IMG/VR virus record: IMGVR_UViG_3300042336_000044
Location: 1-40,942 of that record
From: a virus
Reading direction: 5' to 3' (one strand)
Length of the DNA stretch: 40,942 nucleotides
Both the position numbers and the translations under genes were made by a program. Of this stretch, positions 8,422 through 28,736 are shown piece by piece; position 1 is the first letter of the stretch; the number at the start of each line of letters is the position of its first letter. The notes under the pieces were generated by a model. It saw only the letters and a program-made list of their open reading frames with translations. It was not told where the DNA came from and ran no database searches.

Positions 8422-9014
8422 TTACTGCTGAACAAATTAAAGAATTGCACATTGATGACGATTGGCTAGAGCCTTTGAATGAGGCTATGCAACGCTATGA
8501 AATCAACACGCCACTGCGTATAGCTGCTTTTATTGGTCAATGCGCTCACGAATCAGGCAACTTTAAGACTCTGCAAGAAAACTTGAATTACTCAGCGGAA
8601 GCCCTGTGCCGTGTCTGGCCTAGCAGATTTCCTAATCTTGAGGCAGCACAACCGTATCACCGCAATCCCGACAAGATCGCAAACAAGGTATACGGTGGTC
8701 GTATGGGGAACGGAACCGAAGAAACTGAGGAAGGTAGCCTCTACAAAGGCCGTGGCTTGATCCAGCTTACTGGCAAGGACAACTACACTCTCTGTGGTGA
8801 TGCTTTGCAGCAAGATTTCATTCATTCGCCTGACCTTTTGTTGTCGCCAAAATACGCAGCACTTTCAGCGGCATGGTTTTGGAATAAGCGTGGCCTAAAC
8901 AAAGAGGCCGATGCAAAAGATTATGTCGCCATGACTAAGAAGATCAATGGCGGCACAATCGGTTTAGATGACCGACTCAAGCACATCAATCATGTGCTGG
9001 AAGTCTTGTCTTGA
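8418..9014 (+). CDS. endolysin, glycoside hydrolase family 19 (198 aa)
   Basis: A GH19 chitinase-like lysozyme that cleaves peptidoglycan. The signature GQCAHESGNF places the general acid at Glu45 and QENLNYS the second carboxylate at about Glu54. It is followed by the substrate-groove segments VYGGRMGN and YKGRGLIQLTGKDNY near residue 110, and an INGGTIGLDDR stretch near the C-terminus, all typical of phage GH19 enzymes. There is no signal peptide, so export needs the upstream holin. Length is normal for a single-domain enzyme. Its last 25 bases overlap the 3' end of the convergent minus-strand DUF3310-like gene. Confidence 0.93.
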   Translation: MITAEQIKELHIDDDWLEPLNEAMQRYEINTPLRIAAFIGQCAHESGNFKTLQENLNYSAEALCRVWPSRFPNLEAAQPYHRNPDKIANKVYGGRMGNGTEETEEGSLYKGRGLIQLTGKDNYTLCGDALQQDFIHSPDLLLSPKYAALSAAWFWNKRGLNKEADAKDYVAMTKKINGGTIGLDDRLKHINHVLEVLS

Positions 9015-9301
9015 TATTCCAACTCAAGCAATAACTCTAAGTAGTGAATGGCTTTGCGTATGTCAGCAGCGCCGCCTTTGGTTTTGTACCTAGTAACATA
9101 TTTCACTACGTTCCCGGCACAAAAACCTAAATTGTTGGCGTGAATGTAAACAATAGGTTGGATGGCTTTGTCCTTGTAGTGATTGCCTGATTCTTGTTTA
9201 TCAAGGGCAGACACATGAACAGTTGCTTGTGTACTAATACGCATACCGCAATGCCCAAGATTTACACAATGAGTTGGATTTGTACAAGTACTGCAAAGCA
9301 T
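8990..9301 (-). CDS. DUF3310-like protein with N-terminal Cys cluster (103 aa)
   Basis: The core (NHYKDKAIQPIVYIHANNLG, GNVVKYVTRY, DIRKAIHYLELLLE) matches the DUF3310 pattern common in phages, sometimes labelled nucleotide-kinase-like though the activity is unproven. Ahead of it are four cysteines and a histidine in the first 18 residues (CSTC...HC...HC), a possible zinc site. ATG at 9301 is preferred over GTG at 9304 because AAAGGAG sits 5 bases from it. Its start overlaps the upstream gene's stop by one base (TGATG). It is last in the minus-strand recombination operon and runs 25 bases into the endolysin gene. Confidence 0.85.
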   Translation of the reverse strand: MLCSTCTNPTHCVNLGHCGMRISTQATVHVSALDKQESGNHYKDKAIQPIVYIHANNLGFCAGNVVKYVTRYKTKGGAADIRKAIHYLELLLELEYQDKTSST

Positions 9302-9618
9302 CACGACTCCTTTACAAATTGACCTGCTTTGTTCATATAACCTTTGCGTGGCTCAATAACTTTGTAGGAGTTGTAAAAGCACTGGCGCAAGTCCAAGTCG
9401 CACAACACACCTACGTTAACCAGCGTGACCATAACGTCACCAATGGCATCAGAAATTTCCTCACGGTCATTAACGGCAACAGCAGCAAGCAACTCGCCAG
9501 CTTCCTCAAGCGTTTTCTTTGCTTGACCTAGTGCTGTACCGTTATCGTAAATGCCCCTAGCTTGTGCCCATTGCATAACAGCAAACTCTGTGCTGCTATA
9601 CGATTGTGTTTCTTTCAT
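9301..9618 (-). CDS. MazG-like nucleotide pyrophosphohydrolase (105 aa)
   Basis: An all-helical protein with the metal-binding pattern of the MazG/dUTPase-type all-alpha NTP pyrophosphohydrolases: EEAGE (Glu38, Glu39, Glu42), then EISDAIGD (Glu54, Asp57, Asp61), then hydrophobic VMVTLVNVG. The family hydrolyses NTPs or dNTPs to the monophosphate and pyrophosphate; phage members may act on nucleotide pools or on ppGpp-linked responses. Start chosen at the ATG that overlaps the upstream stop (ATGA); a GTG three codons earlier is less likely. Confidence 0.8.
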   Translation of the reverse strand: MKETQSYSSTEFAVMQWAQARGIYDNGTALGQAKKTLEEAGELLAAVAVNDREEISDAIGDVMVTLVNVGVLCDLDLRQCFYNSYKVIEPRKGYMNKAGQFVKES

Positions 9619-11212: not shown

Positions 11213-11391
11213 TCTTGCACCTGTATCGGTTGTGTCGGTTCTTTCGGTTCTGATTTAACCAACTCAATAGTAGCTGGCAGATCGCGGTAGGTGCTAGAGA
11301 CAACGTCATTAAAGCCGTAGCCTTCAATAAGTTTGTTTGCGTAATCAAGAAGAATTTTCTCAATTTCTTTGCGGGACAATGTAATTACCAT
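11209..11391 (-). CDS. hypothetical protein, first gene of minus-strand recombination operon (60 aa)
   Basis: Preceded by AGGAG at 5-base spacing. Residues 1-40 are helical and charged (SRKEIEKILLDYANKLIEGYG), followed by a Pro/Glu-rich tail (EPKEPTQPIQVQE). No domain recognised. It is the most upstream gene of the unit reading leftward, so the promoter should lie in 11392-11500; I could not pick a convincing -35/-10 pair there. Confidence 0.72.
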   Translation of the reverse strand: MVITLSRKEIEKILLDYANKLIEGYGFNDVVSSTYRDLPATIELVKSEPKEPTQPIQVQE

Positions 11392-11496
11392 GTGAACTCC
11401 TGTCTTGTTGAGCCTCCATCTTATGACGCATCAACAAAAAAAACACTAGGACAAACCCTAATAGACAACCGGGTCAACAATGATACTCTTGCCAGC

Positions 11497-11697
11497 ATGA
11501 ACACACCAGACCACCACGAAACTGCCGCAGCACAGGAGCTTTGCGTTACTGCAATCCAAGCTGTCAAGCAGTACACTTTTGATCCCGGCGACTTGGAGGC
11601 AGCTACTGTTGCTCTCTTGGCTCGGGCCATTGAACTCACCACAAAGAAGGAACTGACACTGTGTTACCAGCAAAACAATACTATCTCGAACAACTAA
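11497..11697 (+). CDS. small hypothetical protein (66 aa)
   Basis: Helical, beginning MNTPDHHETAAAQELCVTAI, with PGDLEAATVALLARAIELT in the middle, and a polar C-terminus. The same frame is open from a GTG at 11392, but that extension (35 extra residues) would cover the divergent control region and share the minus gene's ribosome site, so the internal ATG is preferred. Neither start has a good Shine-Dalgarno. It overlaps the next gene by 37 bases in another frame. Moderate support. Confidence 0.5.
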   Translation: MNTPDHHETAAAQELCVTAIQAVKQYTFDPGDLEAATVALLARAIELTTKKELTLCYQQNNTISNN

Positions 11698-12053
11698 AAG
11701 ATGGCCCTGTAAGCCATAGGACAATCACTAAGCGCATGACAGGCAAATACCTAGATTCAGCAGCGGGAATTAAAGACGCACTGGTTGCAGATGGCATCAT
11801 TGTGTGCGTTGCAAAAGTAATGCAAAGCAACGGCAAGTACGCCTACCATCACAAGCTAACCGGGAAAACCTATGTTGCCAAAAAGCAACAAGAAAACTCT
11901 GATGTTTGGGATGATGGACAAGCAAAGTCAACAGGCAATGCTTTTGATTGGCGCAGTAAAGAACAAGTAATTTACAGCAAGTCGCAGATTTCACAGATAC
12001 AACAAAAGCAAGTTGGCAACAATCGCCAAGTTACTGTTTACAGCAGAGCTTGA
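11661..12053 (+). CDS. helix-turn-helix-like protein (130 aa)
   Basis: GTG start with AAGGA 9 bases upstream. The first 60 residues look like a winged helix: YYLEQLKDGPVSHRTITKRM, GIKDALVADGIIVCVAKV, then a beta wing. The rest is polar and Gln/Ser-rich (KSQISQIQQKQVGNN) and looks disordered. Possibly a DNA-binding regulator at the head of the replication operon. A promoter-like pair overlaps its 3' end. Confidence 0.65.
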   Translation: MLPAKQYYLEQLKDGPVSHRTITKRMTGKYLDSAAGIKDALVADGIIVCVAKVMQSNGKYAYHHKLTGKTYVAKKQQENSDVWDDGQAKSTGNAFDWRSKEQVIYSKSQISQIQQKQVGNNRQVTVYSRA

Positions 12054-12152: not shown

Positions 12153-12917
12153 GTGAATGGAAAATTTATGCTTTTACAGCCAAAAAATTGGGCCGTCTTT
12201 CAACATTACAAAGACCGTTGCCCACCGTGGATCAAACTCCATCGTGACCTCTTAAATGACCGTGTATTTATGTGCTTGCCACTTGCTAGCAAGGCGCTAG
12301 CACCTTTGCTTTGGTTGCTAGCATCAGAGTCTAAAGACGGGACTTTTGATGGCTCACTAGATGAGCTAGTGTTTCGATTGCACATAACACCTAAAGACTA
12401 CCAAGATGGCGTTAAGCCGTTGATTGATAAAGGTTTTTTTGTTGTTGCTAGTGGAGTGCTAGCAGAGTGCTATCAAGATGCTATCCCAGAGACAGAGGGA
12501 GAGGGAGAGACAGAGAGAGAGACAAAGACAGAGCAGAGGCAAAAAAGCAATCGCGGTTCGCGCTTGCCAGTGGACTTTGTTTTGCCAGATGATTGGATTT
12601 CTTTTTGTCAAACAGAACGCAAGGACTTGGTTCCCGCAAAAGTCTTTGACGAGTTTAAAGATTATTGGATTTCAGTTCCAGCAAATAAAGCAACTAGAAC
12701 TGATTGGTTGGCAACATGGAGAAATTGGGTGCGCCGACAAAATGCCCCAAGACAATCCTTTGCCCAACAAGCCGCTGACGTTGCCCGAACAACAGTCCCT
12801 GCCCAACACATTGGTCGTGACCCTGTGCTGCTAAAAATTGAGGCAGACCGTCAGAAGGCTGCGCCCATGCCAGAACACATTCGTCAACAGATCAACCAAG
12901 TCTTGAGAAAAGTATGA
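12153..12917 (+). CDS. replisome organiser / replication initiator, lambda O-like (254 aa)
   Basis: Residues 24-36 (PPWIKLHRDLLND) and the following helices (LASKALAPLLWLLASES, GSLDELVFRL, DYQDGVKPLIDKGFF) form the winged-helix opening seen in phage replisome organisers. Then comes a low-complexity Glu/Thr/Arg linker at about 112-130, and a C-terminal domain (PDDWISFC, FDEFKDYWIS, DWLATWRNWVRR) that resembles the DnaT-like partner-binding module. Such proteins bind iterons at the phage origin and load host helicase. GTG is the likely start (AAGGA just upstream but with only 2-base spacing); ATG at 12168 is the alternative. A GCTAGC cluster lies inside the gene, as lambda ori lies inside O. 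The next gene overlaps by ATGA. Confidence 0.75.
   Translation: MNGKFMLLQPKNWAVFQHYKDRCPPWIKLHRDLLNDRVFMCLPLASKALAPLLWLLASESKDGTFDGSLDELVFRLHITPKDYQDGVKPLIDKGFFVVASGVLAECYQDAIPETEGEGETERETKTEQRQKSNRGSRLPVDFVLPDDWISFCQTERKDLVPAKVFDEFKDYWISVPANKATRTDWLATWRNWVRRQNAPRQSFAQQAADVARTTVPAQHIGRDPVLLKIEADRQKAAPMPEHIRQQINQVLRKV
12283..12464. repeat. GCTAGC iteron-like cluster inside the replisome organiser gene
   Basis: GCTAGCA occurs at 12285, 12296, 12317 and 12458, with near copies at 12365 (GCTAGT) and 12447 (GCTAGT). Spacings of 11, 21 and 11 bases put copies on the same DNA face. The copies fall in two different codon phases (Ala-Ser versus Leu-Ala), so protein selection does not explain them. 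In all, seven CTAG tetramers occur within 180 bases. Likely binding sites for the encoded initiator or for a host factor; inference. Confidence 0.5.
12486..12545 (+). repeat. purine-only low-complexity tract (GAGA/CAGA)
   Basis: The coding strand here is almost wholly A and G with scattered C (repeated GAGAGA and AGACAGAG words). It encodes the charged interdomain linker of the replisome organiser. It could slip during replication and vary in length, or act as an easily unwound or unusual-structure element next to the GCTAGC cluster. Confidence 0.6.
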
Positions 12918-14742: not shown

Positions 14743-15132
14743 ATGAAATTCAGCATCAATGAAGCACCGTCTAATGTGATGGGAGAGTTTGCAATGTGTC
14801 TGCTTAACGGCGTGACAGCAGGGCATATCCACCATCTTGGCACTGACAGCTATTCACAGCACATGGCTTTGGGTGACTTCTACGATGGCCTTGACGATCT
14901 GTCAGACAAATTTATTGAGGCGTACCAAGGCCGATACTCGAAAATAATTTTCGCGGAAAAGGCACTTTTTCTGGGGGAAAATGGTTTGGAGCTTGTTCAG
15001 TATGTTTGTGACCAGATTGAAAGCTATCGCAAGATGCCGGGATTCCCGCAAGACAGTGAACTGCAAAACATCGTGGATGAACTGCTTGACTTGGCAGATT
15101 CCACTAAATACAAGCTGAGATTCCTAAAATAA
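14743..15132 (+). CDS. DUF5856-like ferritin-type helical protein (129 aa)
   Basis: Preceded by AGGAG at about 8-base spacing. Mostly helical, with GHIHHLGTDSYSQHMALGDFYDGLDDL and DKFIEAYQGRYSK, which agrees with DUF5856 phage proteins (helical bundle reminiscent of Dps). The histidine and acidic residues (His29, His31, His40, Asp46, Asp49) could bind metal, but a ferritin iron site is not demonstrated. Overlaps the last gene of the operon by one base. Confidence 0.7.
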   Translation: MKFSINEAPSNVMGEFAMCLLNGVTAGHIHHLGTDSYSQHMALGDFYDGLDDLSDKFIEAYQGRYSKIIFAEKALFLGENGLELVQYVCDQIESYRKMPGFPQDSELQNIVDELLDLADSTKYKLRFLK

Positions 15133-15332
15133 TGCCACTCATAAAAAAACAATCAGGCTGGTATTGGGGTTCGCAAGGGCCATTTGATACAAAAGCAAAA
15201 GCATTGGCAGCATCCAGAGCCGCTTACGCTTCTGGCTACAAAAAGCAGAATGCTGACGTAATTTCCTACAGAGTTGACGAAATTAACTGGAAACCCCCAA
15301 CAAATTTGCTGAAAAAATTTGAGAAGGCTTAA
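15132..15332 (+). CDS. small basic hypothetical protein, last gene of the operon (66 aa)
   Basis: Start shares one base with the previous stop (TAATG). Basic and aromatic (KKQSGWYWGSQGPFDTKAKA, AASRAAYASGYKK), ending LLKKFEKA. The N-terminal GWYWGSQGPF turn repeats across small phage proteins where a query peptide is short, but no function is known to me. It is followed by an intrinsic terminator 47 bases downstream. Confidence 0.7.
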   Translation: MPLIKKQSGWYWGSQGPFDTKAKALAASRAAYASGYKKQNADVISYRVDEINWKPPTNLLKKFEKA

Positions 15333-15405: not shown

Positions 15406-15497
15406 CTTCTAAATTTTTTTTCCGAAATGCGTAGTTGGCTTTTAGGGTTTTTTGGCTCTATATTGCCGTTTGGTTATATAAGCTTCCGCTGATGTGT

Positions 15498-15511: not shown

Positions 15512-15728
15512 CGCATCAGGGTAAACCCCTACTACGTAGGGGAAAACCCGTAAGGGTAAACCCTTAGTTTGTCTGGTTACAGGACCACAGGCAGACCAGC
15601 AGCAGACCACAGACCAGACCATGCCACCACAAAGGCCCACATCAGGCCCACAGTAGACCATTTGACCTGTGCCTGTAGGGTAGTGGCTTGACACTGCAAA
15701 AATGCCTTGTAGACCCTCATACCAAGAA

Positions 15729-15742
15729 GTGAGCACTCACTT
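15729..15742. repeat. 14-base dyad repeat, copy 2 (GTGAGCACTCACTT)
   Basis: Exact copy of 15498-15511, in the same orientation, just past the minus-strand terminator. Together the pair brackets the convergent intergenic region. Confidence 0.6.
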
Positions 15743-15755
15743 ACTTAACAGGCCC

Positions 15756-15778
15756 AAAAAAACCCGGTCAGTGACCGG
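15756..15778 (-). terminator. rho-independent terminator of the minus-strand small-gene operon
   Basis: Read on the minus strand: CCGGTC, loop ACT, GACCGG, then G and seven T residues (seen as AAAAAAA at 15756-15762 on +). It starts 21 bases after the last minus-strand stop codon, so it closes the operon that begins at 18340. Confidence 0.85.
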
Positions 15779-15798
15779 ATTCTCTTGGGTCTGTCTAG

Positions 15799-16035
15799 TC
15801 AGGCCAGACACCAGAAATCATCCCTGTGTACTTCTCTTGAATCTTGGTCATCTGGCCCATTTAAAAGAAATACATCCAAAGACCCACAGGCATAAATGGT
15901 GTCAACGATATAAAGCTGCACAGGCTGTCCAGAATCTGCCAAGCAGACCCCTACAGAGTTAACAGAGATATTTTCTCTGCCTTTGCCTTGTTTCTTTTCT
16001 TGTAGTGCAATATCCAAATCAGAAAAATAACTCAT
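15799..16035 (-). CDS. hypothetical protein (78 aa)
   Basis: Starts one base after the upstream gene's stop, so translation is probably coupled; no clear Shine-Dalgarno. N-terminal charged helix (DLDIALQEKKQGKGRENI), then beta-like SVGVCLADSGQPVQLYIVDTIYACG and an acidic end. No domain recognised. Last gene before the minus-strand terminator and inside the CpG-poor block. Confidence 0.6.
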   Translation of the reverse strand: MSYFSDLDIALQEKKQGKGRENISVNSVGVCLADSGQPVQLYIVDTIYACGSLDVFLLNGPDDQDSREVHRDDFWCLA

Positions 16036-16036
16036 A

Positions 16037-16342
16037 TTAAGACCCCAAGCTAAAAGACAAAATGGTTACATCACCATGCACAGAGACTATATTTAATCCC
16101 TCTAAATAACAGTGGTGAAAATTTAAAGTGAATTGCTGTGCTTTCATGCTTTCAATAAATACTTGACCCCAATTTGGAGATTCAAAAACATCAGAGACAT
16201 AAGACTCTGAATCATCGCCACCAAAAAATTTATTAGCTTCAATAATAAAATAGCACTTGCCTTTAAATGCTATTGAATCAAGTGGAGCATACATATCATT
16301 TTCAGTAGATACGCTATACATCATTCTCGGAAAATGTTTCAT
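16037..16342 (-). CDS. hypothetical protein (101 aa)
   Basis: AGGAG lies 8 bases before the ATG. The product is alpha/beta with an aromatic core (CYFIIEANKFFGGDDSESYVS) and a short C-terminal strand region (LNFHHCYLEGLNIVSVHGDV). No family recognised. AT-rich and nearly free of CpG. Confidence 0.7.
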   Translation of the reverse strand: MKHFPRMMYSVSTENDMYAPLDSIAFKGKCYFIIEANKFFGGDDSESYVSDVFESPNWGQVFIESMKAQQFTLNFHHCYLEGLNIVSVHGDVTILSFSLGS

Positions 16343-16356
16343 TTTTAAATCTCCTA

Positions 16357-17007
16357 TTAATGCAATTCATAAGACACAGGCACAGCAGACCAGCAGACCC
16401 TGCACTCTCTGCACTCTCCACCTTGTGCAGGTGCTTTGCATGGCTCTCCAATGGCTGTCTTGGTATGCACATTAGACACAGTAATATTTTTAATACCCTG
16501 TAGGCTGGCTGGCACTTTTACTGGTTGATCTGGATACATAGCAGATAACCGAATAATGAGATTATCGGGAAGACTGCCATATTTAGAGATATATTCTTTA
16601 ATCATTGAATATTCTCTTGTAGGTAGCCAGTGCATGGTGTCTGGTGTCTGTGCTGCTACCTGTGCGATTTTCTCCAAGTGCCAGAGACCCTGCAGGTCTC
16701 CACTGTCATGCCATCTGAAGTAAGCATCAAGCCCAATTAAAGCCACCATTGATGCAACCCAGTGCTCACTAGTCAGAGAATCTAATCTAGCGTGTTGTGC
16801 TGGTTGTATGGTGTTCTGATACATAGAATAAAAGCCCTTGTCTGCATAACAGGTAGAGCAGATGCTTCCCTTAATCTGTGCCATCTTGTAACCAGTAATA
16901 CAAGCCACAGTAGGCAGAGAATATGATTTACAAGGCATTTTAGAAGTCTGAGTTAATCCACCATTAATAATGGAAGCCACTTTTTTAAGCATAAATACTT
17001 TTTGCAT
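16357..17007 (-). CDS. GP88-family protein with paired Cys motifs (216 aa)
   Basis: Matches the phage GP88 family (named after mycobacteriophage gene 88 products; PF17338) by SKMPCKSYSLP, GSICSTCYADKG, FRWHDSGDLQ, WLPTRE and the C-terminal ECRECRVCW. Eight cysteines: 26, 36, 50, 53, 190, 199, 202, 205. The CxxCY plus C-terminal CxxCxxC arrangement suggests a metal or Fe-S site, but the family has no assigned activity. Five of its six arginines use AGA or AGG, in keeping with the CpG-poor block. ATG at 17007 chosen; ATG at 16992 is possible. Confidence 0.8.
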   Translation of the reverse strand: MQKVFMLKKVASIINGGLTQTSKMPCKSYSLPTVACITGYKMAQIKGSICSTCYADKGFYSMYQNTIQPAQHARLDSLTSEHWVASMVALIGLDAYFRWHDSGDLQGLWHLEKIAQVAAQTPDTMHWLPTREYSMIKEYISKYGSLPDNLIIRLSAMYPDQPVKVPASLQGIKNITVSNVHTKTAIGEPCKAPAQGGECRECRVCWSAVPVSYELH

Positions 17008-17028
17008 TTTGTCTTGTCTTTCGTTTGG

Positions 17029-17418
17029 TTAGGTTTCAGGGTCAGTGTCGGTTATAGTCACTTTGGCGAACAAGTATTCATCATTCATGTTTTGAAGTTG
17101 TCTTTCATATGAAATGATGTTTTTGATGATTTCTCCATCAATCAACATATCTTCATAATTTCGACTGTAAGACGCTGAAAAATCAGCGTTAACAGAAAAT
17201 TCAAAGGTCAATTTGTCACAAAAAATCTGTTGGTCAAACTGTCTTTGTCTTTCCCTTGCTGCCATTTCTTGCCTCAAGGATTTGAGGGTTTCTATGCAGC
17301 GTTTTGAAATTTTTATGAGTGCTGCCTTTTCATCATTCAAGCTTTCAGTCAGCAAGCTATGGAAAGCCACAAGATCAACTTCTAGTCTTGCTGCTGAGTG
17401 TGCAGGGTGTTTTGTCAT
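17029..17418 (-). CDS. hypothetical coiled-coil protein (129 aa)
   Basis: Starts behind a GAAAGACAA leader shared with the next gene. Long charged helix from about residue 15 to 65 (TESLNDEKAALIKISKRCIE, then ETLKSLRQEMAARERQRQFD) likely to be a coiled coil, followed by a beta segment (LTFEFSVNADFSASYSR) and a second helix. No recognised domain. Central member of the minus-strand operon. Confidence 0.7.
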   Translation of the reverse strand: MTKHPAHSAARLEVDLVAFHSLLTESLNDEKAALIKISKRCIETLKSLRQEMAARERQRQFDQQIFCDKLTFEFSVNADFSASYSRNYEDMLIDGEIIKNIISYERQLQNMNDEYLFAKVTITDTDPET

Positions 17419-17435
17419 GTTTTGTCTTTCGTTAA

Positions 17436-17531
17436 TTAGTAAGTCAGGATGTCAAAATAAGCCAGTGCAAAACCACATAGCACAAGGCCCAAAAGAATCG
17501 CTGTCAATATGTCCAATATAGTTTCTTTCAT
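17436..17531 (-). CDS. 31-residue single-span membrane micro-protein
   Basis: AAGGAG at 8-base spacing precedes the ATG, a near-ideal ribosome site. The product is one membrane helix (ILDILTAILLGLVLCGFALAY) with a short charged N-terminus (MKETI) and the tail FDILTY. It starts 12 bases after the upstream gene's stop. Tiny early membrane proteins in phages often modulate the host envelope or exclude other phages; the role here is unknown. Confidence 0.65.
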   Translation of the reverse strand: MKETILDILTAILLGLVLCGFALAYFDILTY

Positions 17532-17543
17532 TTCTGTTTCTCC

Positions 17544-17828
17544 TTAGATTGTTGATTCATAAACTTCTGACCACTCTTCCATAAATGATGTACAGGTGTA
17601 ATCCACCACTGTTTCATCATCTTCAAGACCAAAGGCAGACACTAAGGCCCATCCAATGACAGTATCTTTCTGCCTTATTCTTAACTGTGCTTCTTCTACT
17701 GATTCAATGGCATCAATAATGGCTTTGTAACCAGTGCTTCTTTTAACTTGCCATTCTTCACCATCCCATACAGAGACAGTGCAACCCATAGACAGGCAGT
17801 GCTTGATTAAGTGCTTGTAGGCTTTCAT
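17544..17828 (-). CDS. hypothetical small phage protein (94 aa)
   Basis: Strong AAGGAG ribosome site. Alpha/beta with CLSMGCTVSVWDGEEWQVKRS at the N-terminus, then AIIDAIESVEEAQLRIRQKD, and an acidic end (DDETVVDYTCTSFMEEWSEVY). The pattern of a short strand pair followed by SVEEAQL helix is familiar from small proteins in unrelated phages, but no function is known to me. Confidence 0.75.
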   Translation of the reverse strand: MKAYKHLIKHCLSMGCTVSVWDGEEWQVKRSTGYKAIIDAIESVEEAQLRIRQKDTVIGWALVSAFGLEDDETVVDYTCTSFMEEWSEVYESTI

Positions 17829-17840
17829 TTTGGTATCTCC

Positions 17841-18065
17841 TTATTTGTTAGATGCGTAGTTATGCAGGGTCTTCACATAGTCCCTGAATGACTTGTGCGA
17901 CTTGGCATTCATGTACCAAGCCACCACCACAGTGCCAGACTTCCTGACACCCAAGAAGATGCCTTTATTGTCTTTAGACCCTGCGTAGACCCATTGACCG
18001 GGTTGAATGTGCTTATAGAAGGCATCGGGCATGGCCCATACGTTAAAAGCTGGTTGATATTTCAT
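17841..18065 (-). CDS. hypothetical protein, SH3-like beta pattern (74 aa)
   Basis: AGGAG lies 8 bases before the ATG. After MKYQPAFNVWAMPDAF, the run GQWVYAGSKDNKGIFLGVRKSGTVVVAWY looks like a small beta barrel of SH3/KOW type, followed by a basic helix (KSFRDYVKTLHNYA). May bind nucleic acid or protein; not assigned. Confidence 0.72.
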   Translation of the reverse strand: MKYQPAFNVWAMPDAFYKHIQPGQWVYAGSKDNKGIFLGVRKSGTVVVAWYMNAKSHKSFRDYVKTLHNYASNK

Positions 18066-18088
18066 GGTGTTTTCTCCTGTGGGTTGAT

Positions 18089-18340
18089 TTACTTGCTGAC
18101 TTTGACTGCGTAGGTTTTGACTTTGACTTTGACACCACCTTTAGGGCCAATGGTGAATTGGACAATGAAGTGAGTGTCAAACCAGTGCTTTGACTGTGTG
18201 TTGCTGCCTTGAATGAATACCTTGTCTCCTATCTCATCCATAGTGAAAGTCAACTCACCACCGATGTATTTGCAAGTTTTCCACTCAACATACTCACGTT
18301 TAGTGACTGTCTGTGCTACTTTGATTTGCTTGCTGTTCAT
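18089..18340 (-). CDS. hypothetical beta-rich protein, first gene of the minus-strand operon (83 aa)
   Basis: AAAGGA lies 8 bases before the ATG. Mostly strands: ELTFTMDEIGDKVFIQGSN, FIVQFTIGPKGGVKVKVKTY. Lysine-rich C-terminus. It is the first gene leftward from the DnaA-box region, so its promoter should lie in 18341-18480, which also holds a GGGTAAACCC word and the outermost DnaA box. Confidence 0.72.
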   Translation of the reverse strand: MNSKQIKVAQTVTKREYVEWKTCKYIGGELTFTMDEIGDKVFIQGSNTQSKHWFDTHFIVQFTIGPKGGVKVKVKTYAVKVSK

Positions 18341-18732
18341 AATTTAATCCTTTGGTTTGCTAAACTGTGTATGGGCTGCGTCATCCTGTCCCATGCTTTG
18401 GATTTTAGTGTTATCCACAAAAAACTATTCTTAGGGTAAACCCTATGTTTCTATAGAAAAGTTGCACTAATAGATATGCAAAGCATTTGCAAAAGTTGCT
18501 TGGAATTGCTTGTGTTTTACATAGGCCCATAGAAGCCCCTAAAAGCCCTTTTAAGACGTTTTAGGCTTTGCCCATGCTTACCCCTTAGCAAAAGTTATCC
18601 ACACTGCTAGTGGTATCCATCCACAGATTTTGGTCTTATATAAGACTGACAACCTGTGTATAACTCTGGCCCACATCTTGCACAGCAGTGGATAACTTTG
18701 ATGCGTGTGGGTAACTTGTGGATAATGGCTAG
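18341..18732. other. origin-like noncoding region with DnaA boxes
   Basis: About 390 bases without a gene, between divergent transcription units. DnaA boxes: TTATCCACA at 18411-18419 (+), 18595-18603 (+) and 18717-18725 (-), all perfect; TTATACACA at 18655-18663 (-), a consensus TTWTNCACA match; and one-mismatch copies at 18687-18695 and 18706-18714 (both -). AT-rich stretches (18446-18480, 18633-18644) could unwind. A GGGTAAACCC dyad is at 18434. The orientation switch of the boxes near 18650 gives an inward-facing array, as in bacterial oriC or DnaA-dependent plasmid origins. It could also be a DnaA-responsive promoter control site. Confidence 0.65.
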
Positions 18733-19158
18733 ATGCCCACATCACCACCCACACAGTGCAGCAAGTACAGGTGCAAGCATCCATCCATCAAGGGAAGCAT
18801 CTTCTGTGCAGAGCATTCACCACCTAAGACCACCACCCAAGACCGACAGGCATTTAATGCCCATTACAAGACAGCAGCATGGGCCAAGCAAAGAGCCATT
18901 CAATTATCTAAACAACCACTGTGCCAAGCCTGTTTATTAAATAACCAGATAACCCAAGCAGAACATATAGACCACCTATTTGCATGGTCTGCACTTGGCG
19001 AATATGCCTTTAAATTAAATCTATTTCAAAGCCTGTGTGAATCACATCATTCATTTAAAACAGGTCTTGAATCAAAGGGTATATACAGACATTACACAGT
19101 AAATGGTGAAAAGGATTATTCATTATCCGATTATCAATCTGTAATTACTTCTACCTAG
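18733..19158 (+). CDS. HNH endonuclease beside terminase (141 aa)
   Basis: N-terminal zinc-ribbon-like part (Cys9, Cys14, Cys25, His28), then the nuclease core: QPLCQACLL (Cys64, Cys67), AEHIDHLFA (His78, Asp80, His81) and LFQSLCESHHSFKT (Cys102, His105, His106), a typical zinc-braced HNH of ~75 residues. HNH proteins encoded next to the terminase in HK97-like phages stimulate terminase cleavage at cos. The start codon sits 7 bases after the last DnaA box and lacks a clear ribosome site, so the start is less certain. The gene is AT-rich and CpG-poor, unlike the terminase. Confidence 0.87.
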   Translation: MPTSPPTQCSKYRCKHPSIKGSIFCAEHSPPKTTTQDRQAFNAHYKTAAWAKQRAIQLSKQPLCQACLLNNQITQAEHIDHLFAWSALGEYAFKLNLFQSLCESHHSFKTGLESKGIYRHYTVNGEKDYSLSDYQSVITST

Positions 19159-19411
19159 TATCACCACATCATCACTTATCAATGGCTATTATGTAATGCT
19201 TGTGTTTGCAATACAGCATAGCCATGCCATGCCATCACTCAAAAAGTAGTACCCATACCTTACCAAGTGACGGATTTGAAACTAAAAGTGTGCCGTTTGG
19301 CGTAGGAGCAGGCGCGGGGACGATTGCGTAGAGATGCAAAGTCAAGAGTGGGTGTACGAACTGTCGGTTTGTGGTACGCTAAAGCATGACAAGATAACAG
19401 GAACTAACCTT
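19159..19411. other. HNH-terminase intergenic region, candidate cos site
   Basis: About 250 bases without a gene, in the position where cos lies in HK97-type phages (HNH last, small terminase first). It changes abruptly in composition: CpG-free up to about 19260, then a GC-rich patch around 19300-19331 (GGCGCGGGGACG flanked by GCGTAG at 19300 and 19326). This GC patch resembles cohesive-end sequences of lambdoid phages in style, but no cut site can be proven. The repeated CATGCCATGCC word is at about 19221-19232. Confidence 0.4.
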
Positions 19412-19783
19412 ATGGCAAAAAAACCTCGTCACATTCTCGGCTACTTAAACGACCCTTCCACTTGGGACAGGTCTGCGTTTGAGACTGCTATTCGCGCTGA
19501 AGTCGAAGCCTCGACAGGAACGCTCACGGCATCAGATGAGTTGCTTGTTGGTGCGCTGGTCATTACTGTTGACAGTATGCTGACAGCAGAAATTAACATT
19601 CGTGAGCAAGGCCACACGTTTACTTACAACTCAGGGGATGCCACTAGCCCGTGGTACAAGATTCGTACTGAGATGGCTGACAAGGCTGTCAAGATGTTGG
19701 CTGAGTTGGGGCTTGTTGCCCGTGGTCGCCCAAAGTTGAAGGCAAAAGTGAGTGATGTAGATGAGCTATTCGCCACTGCTTAA
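19412..19783 (+). CDS. terminase small subunit, P27 family (123 aa)
   Basis: Start chosen at the ATG with AGGA 9 bases upstream; an open extension to 19334 runs into the candidate cos region. Helical, with KKPRHILGYLNDPSTWD, a central helix LVGALVITVDSMLTAEINIRE, YNSGDATSPWYKIRTEMADKAVKML and the C-terminal ARGRPKLKAK, which together fit the P27-like family (GHTF/Y..NPW..I...A....L..LGL pattern). It would recognise the packaging site and recruit the large subunit, with which it overlaps by 23 bases. Confidence 0.88.
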   Translation: MAKKPRHILGYLNDPSTWDRSAFETAIRAEVEASTGTLTASDELLVGALVITVDSMLTAEINIREQGHTFTYNSGDATSPWYKIRTEMADKAVKMLAELGLVARGRPKLKAKVSDVDELFATA

Positions 19784-21440
19784 CCCTGCGTTTGAGTATG
19801 CGGTAGCGGTAACTAGGGGTGACATTCAGGCGTGTGAGGATGTCAAACTAGCTTGCCAACGGTTCTTGGATATGGTCGAACGTAAGGATGCGCCTTACGA
19901 GTTTGTTCCTGCCAAGGCTGAACACATCCTGAAATTTGTCAAGTTCTGCCGCCATGTCAAGGGGCCAGATGCCGGGAGGTCAATTGAACTACAGCCGTTT
20001 CAGGTTATGTACTTGGCTGGCGTTTACGGGTTCAGGGACAGGCGTGACCACTCTTTTCGTTATGTCACTGATGTCATTTTGTTCGTTCCTCGTAAGTCAG
20101 GCAAGACAACCATTGCGTCCATCATTGCGCTGTATGAGTTGCAGTTTGGTGATGCTGGTGCTGAAGTGTTTACTCTGGCTACTAACCGGGATCAAGCGTC
20201 TATTTGCTTTGATTCGTCCAAAGCTATCGTAGAAAACATGAAACCCGAGTTGGGAGCTAAGTTCATTGCCTACCGAAGCGAACTGAAGAAGGCTGGCGAC
20301 TCGACTTCTACCTACCGTGCGCTGTCACGCGAGAACCGGAAAACTGGTGACGGTAAGAACCCGTCCTGTGCAATGATTGATGAGGCTGCTCAGATTACTG
20401 AGAGACAGTCTATTGAGGTCTTGCATTCGGGTATGGGCGCTCGAAAGAACCCGCTGCGGATGTACCTGACAACTGCCAGCTTTACTAAGGAAACCAAGTT
20501 CTTTGAAGACCTTTCGCACTACCGTAGCGTGTTGCGTGGCGCTGCTCCTGATAGTCATCGCTGGTTTGGCCTACTTTATAGCATTGACCCCGGCGATAAT
20601 TGGGCTGACCCTGCGGTATGGGGCAAAGCGAACCCGATGCTTGGGATATCGGTCACAACTCAGCACATTCAGCAGATGGCTGAAGAAGCGTCTGCCAAGC
20701 CAGCAAGCCTAAACGAATTCCTGTGTAAGCAGTTGAACATCTATGTTTCGGCTAATTCTGCTTGGGTTGACAGAAGGCATTGGGATGAATCGGTCACTCC
20801 AATGCCGAAAGAAAAGCCTGAAGCTACATTTGTTGCTTTTGACTTGGCTCACACGCGAGATTTGAATGCTGTTTGCACTTTGCACAGATACAGCGAAGAA
20901 GATTTTTATGCCAAGTTCCAATTCTTTCTACCGGAAGAATCTATTGACCTAATCCCAAACCACTACAAGAGCATATTTTCTCAGGCTCATGCAAGTGGCA
21001 TTTTGAGGCTCACGCCGGGTAACGTAACTGACCTGAATGAAGTTGAGTCGTACATTAAACAAGAATGCGAAAAGCACAGCGTTAAAGAAGTTGGCTACGA
21101 TCCATATAACGCAGCCGCTTTAGTGGCTAACCTGTATGCTGATGGTTTGCCTGTCAAAAAGGTTGGTCAGGGTATGGCTATGCTGTCAAACCCGTCTAAG
21201 ACCACTGAGCAATTGATTCTGAAGAAAGCTATCCATCACGATGGCAACCCGTTTGTTGGTTGGCAATTAGGTAACTGCGAGGTTTACACCGATGTCAACG
21301 GCAACGTGAAGGTCAGGAAGAATGAAGCAGACCCGTCAGCCAAAGTGGACGGTATTATTGCCATGATTATGGCTTTGCATTGCCATTTGGATAACGTGTT
21401 TGTCAGTGATTCATTTGGATTTAGAGCAATAGAGTGGTAA
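19761..21440 (+). CDS. terL: terminase large subunit (559 aa)
   Basis: Terminase_1 type DNA-packaging motor of HK97-like phages. Walker A at about residues 109-117 (VPRKSGKTT), adenine/coupling segment TLATNRDQA after it, Walker B near 203-208 (CAMIDE, with Asp207-Glu208), then MYLTTASFTKE. The nuclease domain opens FVAFDLAHTRDLNAV (Asp361, Asp367), with EVGYDPYNAA and a later KVDGIIAMIMAL carrying the third acidic residue. Length is normal. It cleaves concatemers and pumps DNA through the portal. No strong ribosome site; coupling with the small subunit by overlap is likely. Confidence 0.96.
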   Translation: MSYSPLLNPAFEYAVAVTRGDIQACEDVKLACQRFLDMVERKDAPYEFVPAKAEHILKFVKFCRHVKGPDAGRSIELQPFQVMYLAGVYGFRDRRDHSFRYVTDVILFVPRKSGKTTIASIIALYELQFGDAGAEVFTLATNRDQASICFDSSKAIVENMKPELGAKFIAYRSELKKAGDSTSTYRALSRENRKTGDGKNPSCAMIDEAAQITERQSIEVLHSGMGARKNPLRMYLTTASFTKETKFFEDLSHYRSVLRGAAPDSHRWFGLLYSIDPGDNWADPAVWGKANPMLGISVTTQHIQQMAEEASAKPASLNEFLCKQLNIYVSANSAWVDRRHWDESVTPMPKEKPEATFVAFDLAHTRDLNAVCTLHRYSEEDFYAKFQFFLPEESIDLIPNHYKSIFSQAHASGILRLTPGNVTDLNEVESYIKQECEKHSVKEVGYDPYNAAALVANLYADGLPVKKVGQGMAMLSNPSKTTEQLILKKAIHHDGNPFVGWQLGNCEVYTDVNGNVKVRKNEADPSAKVDGIIAMIMALHCHLDNVFVSDSFGFRAIEW

Positions 21441-27713: not shown

Positions 27714-28208
27714 ATGGCTTTACCAAACAAAGTTCTACCCGGTTTTAGCGCGGCTTTGTACGCACAACCCGGAGCTACACCTACTCCTTTGACAATTACA
27801 CAGTTGTCCTTGGTTGCTAGTGTTGGGCCACTTGCTATTAGCGGCAACCTAATTCCTGTCGAAGCAATCCCTGCTTTCGGTCAAGATGATGCGGTTGCTA
27901 GTTTCGGCGTAGCTGGTTCGCGTCAGTCTGACAAGATTCCCGTTCAGGCTGCACCAACTTCCATGACCATTACTGCTGCATGGAACCCTGCTGATACCAA
28001 CTTGCTGTTGATGCGTGCTGATGCCTATTCTGGCGTGATTGACCGCACTTTCATTGTTTCGGCAACCGAAGGTGCAAACATCGTTTATTACGCCTTTAAC
28101 GGGCGTGTAGGCCAGTTCCAAGTAGATTCGGCTCCCGGTGCAGAAGCCAAGGCTACATTTACCATCCATCCCCGTGGCAATCAGTACGGTTGGTCTAACA
28201 ACGCTTAA
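27714..28208 (+). CDS. major tail (tube) protein 1 (164 aa)
   Basis: AAAGGA precedes the ATG. All-beta tube subunit with a Gly/Pro-rich N-terminus (LPGFSAALYAQPGATPTP). It shares with the next gene an identical 45-residue block beginning PVEAIPAFGQDDAVASFGV, and a nearly identical C-terminus (FNGRVGQFQ, DSAPGAEAK, HPRGNQYGWSNN). Gene order after the tail terminator and before the tail chaperone supports tube function. The pair is a tandem duplication. Confidence 0.82.
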   Translation: MALPNKVLPGFSAALYAQPGATPTPLTITQLSLVASVGPLAISGNLIPVEAIPAFGQDDAVASFGVAGSRQSDKIPVQAAPTSMTITAAWNPADTNLLLMRADAYSGVIDRTFIVSATEGANIVYYAFNGRVGQFQVDSAPGAEAKATFTIHPRGNQYGWSNNA

Positions 28209-28217
28209 GGAGTCATC

Positions 28218-28736
28218 ATGGCTATCCCTGCAAAAGTTCTTCCCGGTTTTGCCGCATCGTTGTGGATGCAATCGGCTGCTACTCCAACTCCATTGACAAC
28301 CGCTAACTTGTCTGTGTGGGTTGCTCAAGTAACCACTATCGTGGGCACTTCAGCCAACGGTACAGGTGGCGCTGGTGTTGCTGTGCCTGTCGAGGCCATC
28401 CCTGCCTTTGGTCAAGATGATGCTGTAGCAAGTTTTGGTGTTGCTGGTTCGCGTCAAAGCGACAAGATTCCTGTGCAAGCGGCTCCTACAAGCATGACCA
28501 TTACTGCTGCTTGGAACCCGTCTGACGCAGCATTGCTCCAGATTCGTGCTGACGCTTACTCTGGTGTTGTTGACCGCACTTTCGTGGTTGCAGCAGTTGA
28601 AAGCACAAACACTGTTGCTTATGCGTTCAACGGTCGTGTTGGTCAATTCCAAATTGACTCTGCACCCGGCGCTGAAGCCAAATGCACATTTACTATTCAT
28701 CCACGGGGCAACCAGTACGGCTGGTCGAACAACTGA
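28218..28736 (+). CDS. major tail (tube) protein 2, tandem paralog (172 aa)
   Basis: AAGGAG precedes the ATG. Same architecture as tube protein 1 with an 8-residue longer N-terminal loop (TSANGTGGAGVA). The 45-residue shared block is identical in protein but differs at many synonymous third positions, so the copies are old and held by selection, not a recent or assembly duplication. May copolymerise, decorate the tube, or replace copy 1 in part of the tail. Its stop overlaps the next start (TGATG). Confidence 0.82.
   Translation: MAIPAKVLPGFAASLWMQSAATPTPLTTANLSVWVAQVTTIVGTSANGTGGAGVAVPVEAIPAFGQDDAVASFGVAGSRQSDKIPVQAAPTSMTITAAWNPSDAALLQIRADAYSGVVDRTFVVAAVESTNTVAYAFNGRVGQFQIDSAPGAEAKCTFTIHPRGNQYGWSNN

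Follow-up and report, generated by a model that had tools for sequence, protein, structure and literature searches.

The leading regions of conjugative plasmids are first-entering hotspots of variable early genes, enriched in anti-defence genes and often carrying methyltransferases (PMC11541004). In phages, depletion of the short protospacer-adjacent motifs (PAMs) used by clustered regularly interspaced short palindromic repeats (CRISPR) systems was ascribed to selection and not to mutation bias, in a comparison of phages whose hosts possess or lack a given CRISPR type (Kupczok and Bollback 2014, PMC4246573). In phages with a cohesive-end site (cos) of the HK97 type, the small and large terminase subunit genes (terS and terL) and an HNH gene lie beside cos; HK97 itself has ends with a 10-nt 3' overhang and an HNH protein (gp74) that stimulates cos cleavage (PMC9410871). 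Here we analyse IMG/VR record IMGVR_UViG_3300042336_000044 (positions 1 to 40,942; hereafter the window), the 40.9-kb genome of a freshwater siphophage, taken from a virus collection and assembled as a circle. It has an HNH gene, a terS-terL pair beside cos and, as argued below, probably the same overhang, whereas its large terminase subunit (TerL) is shared with HK97 only at the broad PHROG level (phrog_9). At the apparent end of its virion DNA lies a 3.7-kb block depleted of CpG, hereafter the CpG desert. Unlike the plasmid leading regions, this is a phage genome end from which one dinucleotide has been lost on a kilobase scale, and none of its cassette genes was recognised as a known anti-defence gene; unlike the PAM depletion, the loss is confined to one terminal cassette. 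The available parts of the plasmid and PAM articles do not describe a kilobase-scale dinucleotide desert, and the searched literature on phage CpG, leading regions and early-region dinucleotides contained no account of a local desert of this kind. Avoidance of motifs by phages is usually weak and measured genome-wide, and we know of no dinucleotide desert in HK97.

The maximum-likelihood low-CpG segment of the window spans 15550-19271 and has a CpG observed/expected ratio (o/e) of 0.22, compared to 0.80 across the remainder of the genome. Within 15553-19260 there are 34 CpGs, where base composition predicts 154.6 and the backbone ratio of 0.80 predicts 123.6 (Poisson P ~1e-21), and the lowest o/e found elsewhere on the circle, in non-overlapping 3,708-bp windows, was 0.67. 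An earlier note made from the sequence alone had reported an abrupt desert of about 3.7 kb with sharp edges in noncoding DNA at about 15550 and about 19260, and both observations hold. At the left edge, CpGs at 15535 and 15549 are followed by the next pair only at 15765 and 15776, within a terminator-like hairpin; at the right edge, the CpG at 19128 is followed by those at 19271, 19294, 19301 and onward. The o/e of the block is far from 1, and depletion of the whole genome was ruled out by the value of 0.80 for the rest. The note's count of AGR codons for five of the six arginines in the GP88 gene was reproduced by reading the sequence directly (AGR five times, CGG once), and codon usage inside the block follows a pattern of its own. 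NCG makes up 4% of NCR codons in the desert, as against 31% in early genes. The excess of TpG and CpA that the note had also described is present but modest (1.44 in the block, 1.33 in the rest). Contained in the desert are a minus-strand operon (15799-18340), a noncoding cluster of DnaA boxes (18411-18725) and the HNH gene (18733-19158).

The position of the desert was deduced from the ends of related contigs. Contigs of relatives that bear terS start at GTCAATT or its equivalent, several desert-bearing contigs of relatives terminate at GGCGTAGGAG or its equivalent, and the ten bases CAGGCGCGGG (19309-19318) are absent from both types of contig end. End repair would remove a 10-nt 3' overhang, which would account for contigs that lack CAGGCGCGGG on both borders, and we infer that CAGGCGCGGG is an HK97-type cos with such an overhang. 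The motif is conserved among relatives with cassettes of different classes. With cos at 19309-19318, the desert would be the final 3.7 kb of the linear virion DNA, stopping 38 bp short of cos, and the minus-strand operon reads inward from the cos end.

Related loci and contigs, labelled L### here, were compared with the window; apart from two isolates, all are metagenomic. The CpG desert is retained in nine relatives, two of which have an HNH protein merely 56-59% identical, and all ten desert members (window included) have CpG-normal backbones. In five other relatives (L051, L065, L071, L077 and L096), homology ends near 15464 and restarts near 19275, and a different cassette with a CpG o/e of 0.95-1.07 and a GC content of ~0.51 lies between; L051 has a TerL 99% identical to that of the window and yet a CpG-normal cassette. 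A survey based on the HNH gene, which as phrog_144 occupies the same place across relatives, gave backbone o/e values of 0.63-0.86 for the family and terminal classes of 0.22-0.38, ~0.7, ~1.0 and 1.2-1.4. The desert members group as a single clade in the HNH tree (99/95), and the other composition classes have clades of their own, so that HNH clade tracks the composition class of the cassette. Homologous genes take on the CpG level of the cassette they occupy: the 94-aa gene, for example, has a CpG o/e of 0.00 in the window and of 0.83-1.15 in L096, L180 and L183. The block is thus a swappable, allelic cassette that lies between the early genes and the putative cos and is replaced as a unit between almost identical flanks, in line with the earlier note's view of it as a discrete module. 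Genome position alone was rejected as a cause of the desert, as CpG-rich cassettes occupy the same position.

Some relatives have lost a different dinucleotide at the same end. The cassettes of L113, L188, L205, L219 and L055 have an ApG/CpT rho of 0.25-0.38, compared to 0.89-1.0 in the remainder of their contigs, and L171 has a milder ApG/CpT desert (0.6). From 19229 onward, L055 shares 92% DNA identity with the window, and its TerL is 98% identical; its terminal cassette nevertheless has an ApG/CpT rho of 0.25, and this desert stops ~71 bp ahead of cos. CpG and ApG/CpT deserts alike end 11-71 bp ahead of cos, and CpG and CC are raised in the ApG/CpT deserts. L012 and L016, which belong to two other phage families, have a GP88-bearing ApG/CpT desert immediately upstream of a terminase that is of a different type. 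A weaker ApG/CpT dip (0.59) covers the GP88 module of the isolate Limnohabitans phage DC31 (PQ492658), an unrelated 76-kb phage that, like the window, has a GP88 gene, the DnaA-box palindrome element and a relative of the 74-aa gene. DNA methyltransferase genes were seen in L113 between cos and terS (8707-9450) and in L016 inside the ApG/CpT desert (11238-11834).

The CpG shortage is not recent. At third codon positions, desert genes have diverged in step with the genes that flank them (Mantel r 0.72 and 0.76; p 0.0006 and 0.003), and in L008, where this divergence reaches 0.5, the desert o/e is still 0.26. At CpG-forming synonymous sites of the desert, a model with its own stationary rates (lnL -83.7) fit better than one with backbone rates and a free root (lnL -92.0). 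Desert and flanks co-diverged, amelioration at backbone rates was rejected, and the CpG shortage is a long-standing, inherited trait of a single cassette lineage that is still maintained and not fading. At conserved GP88 residues where neutral relatives have CpG, desert members show AG in 20 of 31 changes and TG in 2 of 31. The main replacement is of arginine codons from CGN to AGR, a transversion, and lost CpG is not compensated by TpG/CpA in particular. Where a synonymous pyrimidine precedes G, CpG gain is suppressed (0.46 vs 1.69), and a model with raised loss alone was rejected (2dlnL 16.9).

CpG is low in every codon phase (rho 0.19, 0.10 and 0.31) and in noncoding DNA (0.13). The sense strand of the ApG/CpT deserts is as poor in AG as in CT in every phase (0.22-0.39), with 0.44 in noncoding DNA. 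Since all codon phases and noncoding DNA are depleted, and in the ApG/CpT deserts both strands alike, the pattern points to sustained selection acting on double-stranded DNA and not to decay, and suggests that the genome end is subject to unusual, local selection. A codon or tRNA effect was rejected on the depletion of every codon phase plus noncoding DNA, and a target at the RNA level is unsupported, AG and CT of the sense strand being equally depleted in the ApG/CpT deserts.

The features of the desert and its surroundings are as follows.
12153-12917: replication-protein gene, outside the desert
15132-15332, plus strand: 66-aa gene, marker of the conserved left flank
15550-19271: CpG desert, the inferred terminal cassette of the linear virion genome, o/e 0.22
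15764-15778, plus strand: terminator-like hairpin CCGGTCAGTGACCGG, with the sole two CpGs of the desert's left 350 bp
15799-16035, minus strand: 78-aa open reading frame (ORF) of the operon, no family matches, 1 CpG
16037-16342, minus strand: 101-aa ORF, no family matches, 44% homolog within the ApG/CpT desert of L113
16357-17007, minus strand: GP88 (PF17338) protein, 216 aa, 4 CpGs
17029-17418, minus strand: 129-aa ORF between direct repeats TGTYTTGTCTTTCGTT
17544-17828, minus strand: 94-aa ORF, 0 CpGs in the window
17841-18065, minus strand: 74-aa ORF (phrog_21585), homolog in Limnohabitans phage DC31
18089-18340, minus strand: 83-aa ORF, first gene of the operon
18411-18725: four DnaA-box matches around palindrome TCTTATATAAGA, noncoding, between operon and HNH gene
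18733-19158, plus strand: HNH endonuclease (phrog_144), final gene ahead of cos
19309-19318: putative cos cohesive end CAGGCGCGGG, 10-nt 3' overhang
19334-19783, plus strand: terminase small subunit, at the opposite end of the virion DNA, normal CpG
19761-21440, plus strand: terminase large subunit (phrog_9)

Our best guess, which is unproven and which we put forward only tentatively, is that the cassette at the cos end has been purged of words used by host DNA-targeting defence since it enters first, with the words differing between lineages. The desert end would enter the cell first and would meet host DNA-targeting defence or spacer capture before the early proteins of the cassette act, and the short words read by that defence would be purged from the first-entering end. 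Lineages facing another system would purge ApG/CpT instead, and the cassette genes, GP88 included, would be early takeover or counter-defence genes. Stated generally, phage ends would carry swappable cassettes with one dinucleotide purged from both strands, as bacterial defences would recognise words of two or three bases on the ends of entering DNA, and the word would record the defence faced; we regard this wider claim as doubtful.

Several points weigh against such an explanation. We identified no defence system that reads CpG or CpT, and known restriction sites are, to our knowledge, longer than two bases. CpG-rich cassettes lie at the same end of near-identical backbones, so position alone forces no avoidance, and the remainder of the genome retains CpG. 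The desert's codon usage is distinct beyond CpG, which is therefore not its sole peculiarity. CpG contexts are hit unevenly (CCGC 17-fold, ACGG 9-fold, GCGC 7-fold, CCGG undepleted), and these k-mer counts are not independent among desert members, which share kinship. Since the contexts are uneven and GATC and GAAC are likewise low in the desert, a longer or mixed target word is possible. Late genes also show suppressed gain at NNY before G, and the few NCR sites alone fail to reject deamination; the gain and loss test is supportive, not decisive. The entry order proposed for the desert end is taken by analogy from lambda, for which the last-in-first-out rule of ejection is itself disputed (PMC10287942).

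The first alternative is that the block is a foreign cassette from a phage lineage that is CpG-poor genome-wide and has kept the composition of its donor, as the earlier note had proposed. Alternative cassettes in the same slot of near-identical backbones, and codon usage that is distinct beyond CpG, would both be expected of such a block. Like a genomic island, it is discrete and is replaced in relatives while its flanks are conserved; unlike one, its composition is not relaxing toward that of the recipient, for deep desert lineages remain at 0.25-0.28 over a divergence shared with the flanks. As to donors, sister phages such as L207, which share the HNH-terminase layout, show a genome-wide CpG rho of ~0.3 and the nearest dinucleotide signature, but the desert HNH clade is separate from that of L207 and all ten of its members sit in CpG-normal backbones; no CpG-poor donor bearing the desert HNH clade was seen. 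Nor is there a donor for the ApG/CpT deserts among the sampled phages (genome-wide AG about 0.75-1.1), and homologous genes carry the CpG level of whichever cassette they occupy. The swappable module thus stands, and a CpG-avoiding source is insufficient to account for it; we consider the foreign-donor explanation unlikely. L207 itself and L196, L215 and L222, sister phages of the same layout, are low throughout (rho 0.3-0.5 genome-wide), so the CpG level varies greatly among related phages.

It is improbable, in our judgement, that the cassette lost its own target because an HNH, GP88/DUF7227 or methyltransferase protein that it encodes attacks or marks CpG or ApG/CpT. That composition class follows HNH clade fits this idea, as do the methyltransferase genes beside or inside two ApG/CpT deserts. 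Among the terminal cassettes of the family, each of the 15 that encode GP88 or DUF7227 is a desert and 18 of the 20 with neither are non-deserts, but the association is not significant when counted by HNH lineage (p 0.11), and L131 and L063 are CpG deserts without GP88. Beyond the family, deserts were found at only 13 of 80 GP88 loci and 7 of 20 DUF7227 loci, where a terminase relative, when found, is usually 3-5 kb off. GP88/DUF7227 is thus neither sufficient for a desert nor always present, and its presence is unsupported as a general cause of deserts outside the family. The remaining 37 kb retains the word, so any such agent must act locally.

Depletion of CRISPR PAMs is quite improbable as the cause. 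Here spacers would be captured, or would be most effective, near cos, and the PAM motifs of the host would be purged there. There is the phage precedent introduced above, and a short target, strand symmetry, location at a DNA end and lineage-specific words would all fit. Modell et al. 2017 reportedly found spacer capture to draw mainly on the cos end that is injected first. Host CRISPR is not known for these phages, however, and we know of no common PAM that consists simply of CG. AAG, the best-known type I-E PAM, is among the least depleted ApG contexts, and the abrupt inner edge is unexpected from an effect that depends on distance. Deamination of methylated CpG, the earlier note's other suggestion, or some other local mutation bias is very improbable: the slight rise in TpG+CpA and the NCR codon sites, which a high loss rate alone can fit, are outweighed by losses mostly to AGR through transversion, by the suppressed gain at NNY before G and by ApG/CpT deserts that would demand a different process in the same place.

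One dinucleotide is lost 3- to 5-fold within 3.7 kb, with borders of ~200 bases, at a genome end, and the loss has outlasted large divergence. Close relatives with otherwise near-identical genomes lose another dinucleotide instead, which amounts to a natural experiment. Phage pairs that differ mainly in the terminal cassette could reveal what recognises CpG, or CpT/ApG, when DNA enters the cell; they would also flag counter-defence genes among the many unknown small ORFs.

Among the cassette genes, GP88 was identified by PF17338 at 70.7 bits (curated cut-off 24.4). Its structure model is a partial TIM-barrel-like fold with no clear match: compared with radical SAM-like enzymes among others, it reached a best structural Z of ~5, to a chitinase and viperin-like enzymes. 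The model had zero Foldseek matches at E <0.001, and no sequence relatives were found in the PDB. No anti-defence families were recognised in the small cassette ORFs via Pfam or PHROGs (PADLOC was not searched). The 129-aa gene is bracketed by 16-bp direct repeats TGTYTTGTCTTTCGTT at 17010-17025 and 17418-17433; it is missing from most desert relatives (L002-L007 and L131), and its product is 89% identical in L063. In L003, which lacks the gene, the flanking alignments join at the repeat. Because relatives without the gene align up to the repeat, it appears to have been gained or lost via these short repeats. Homology to relatives with other cassettes breaks off just past the 66-aa gene, at about 15453-15484. 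Distant phages (L137-L153) with low CpG around their 74-aa gene were rejected as parallels, their genomes being mostly CpG-poor throughout and without sharp bounds.

The earlier note's description of the block as replicon-like was not borne out: the DnaA-box cluster lies inside it, but the replication-protein gene lies outside. The palindrome TCTTATATAAGA and DnaA boxes at fixed offsets (18590-18726) form a conserved noncoding element present in at least 119 viral stretches, whereas about 85,000 genomes of bacteria and archaea yielded only 3 stretches with it. The element may serve many phages as an origin or as a switch under DnaA control. A link between the desert and this element was ruled out, since ~80 element-bearing loci (L236-L312) are mostly without deserts.

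PHROGs recognised structural genes, terminase and a lysis gene in the window. The closest isolated relative is Methylophilaceae phage P19250A (KX815270; TerL 60%, HNH 44%), which makes a freshwater betaproteobacterium the probable host; when bacterial genomes were scanned with TerL, no relative was found. P19250A shares the structural gene order of the window and has an HNH gene near its right end, but its genome CpG o/e is 0.66 with no sharp terminal desert, and it yielded no counterpart of the GP88 operon. Stronger general avoidance of palindromes was not seen in the desert (4-mer palindromes O/E 0.84, backbone 0.78). In the pooled backbone, CCAGG/CCTGG was found 2 times where ~200 were expected, and CCATGG, GGGCCC and GTGCAC are nearly missing family-wide, a pattern like strong restriction-site avoidance. 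Elsewhere in the window, the adjacent ORFs 27714-28208 and 28218-28736 match the same regions of relatives (~76% DNA identity) and represent a tandem duplication of a probable virion gene.

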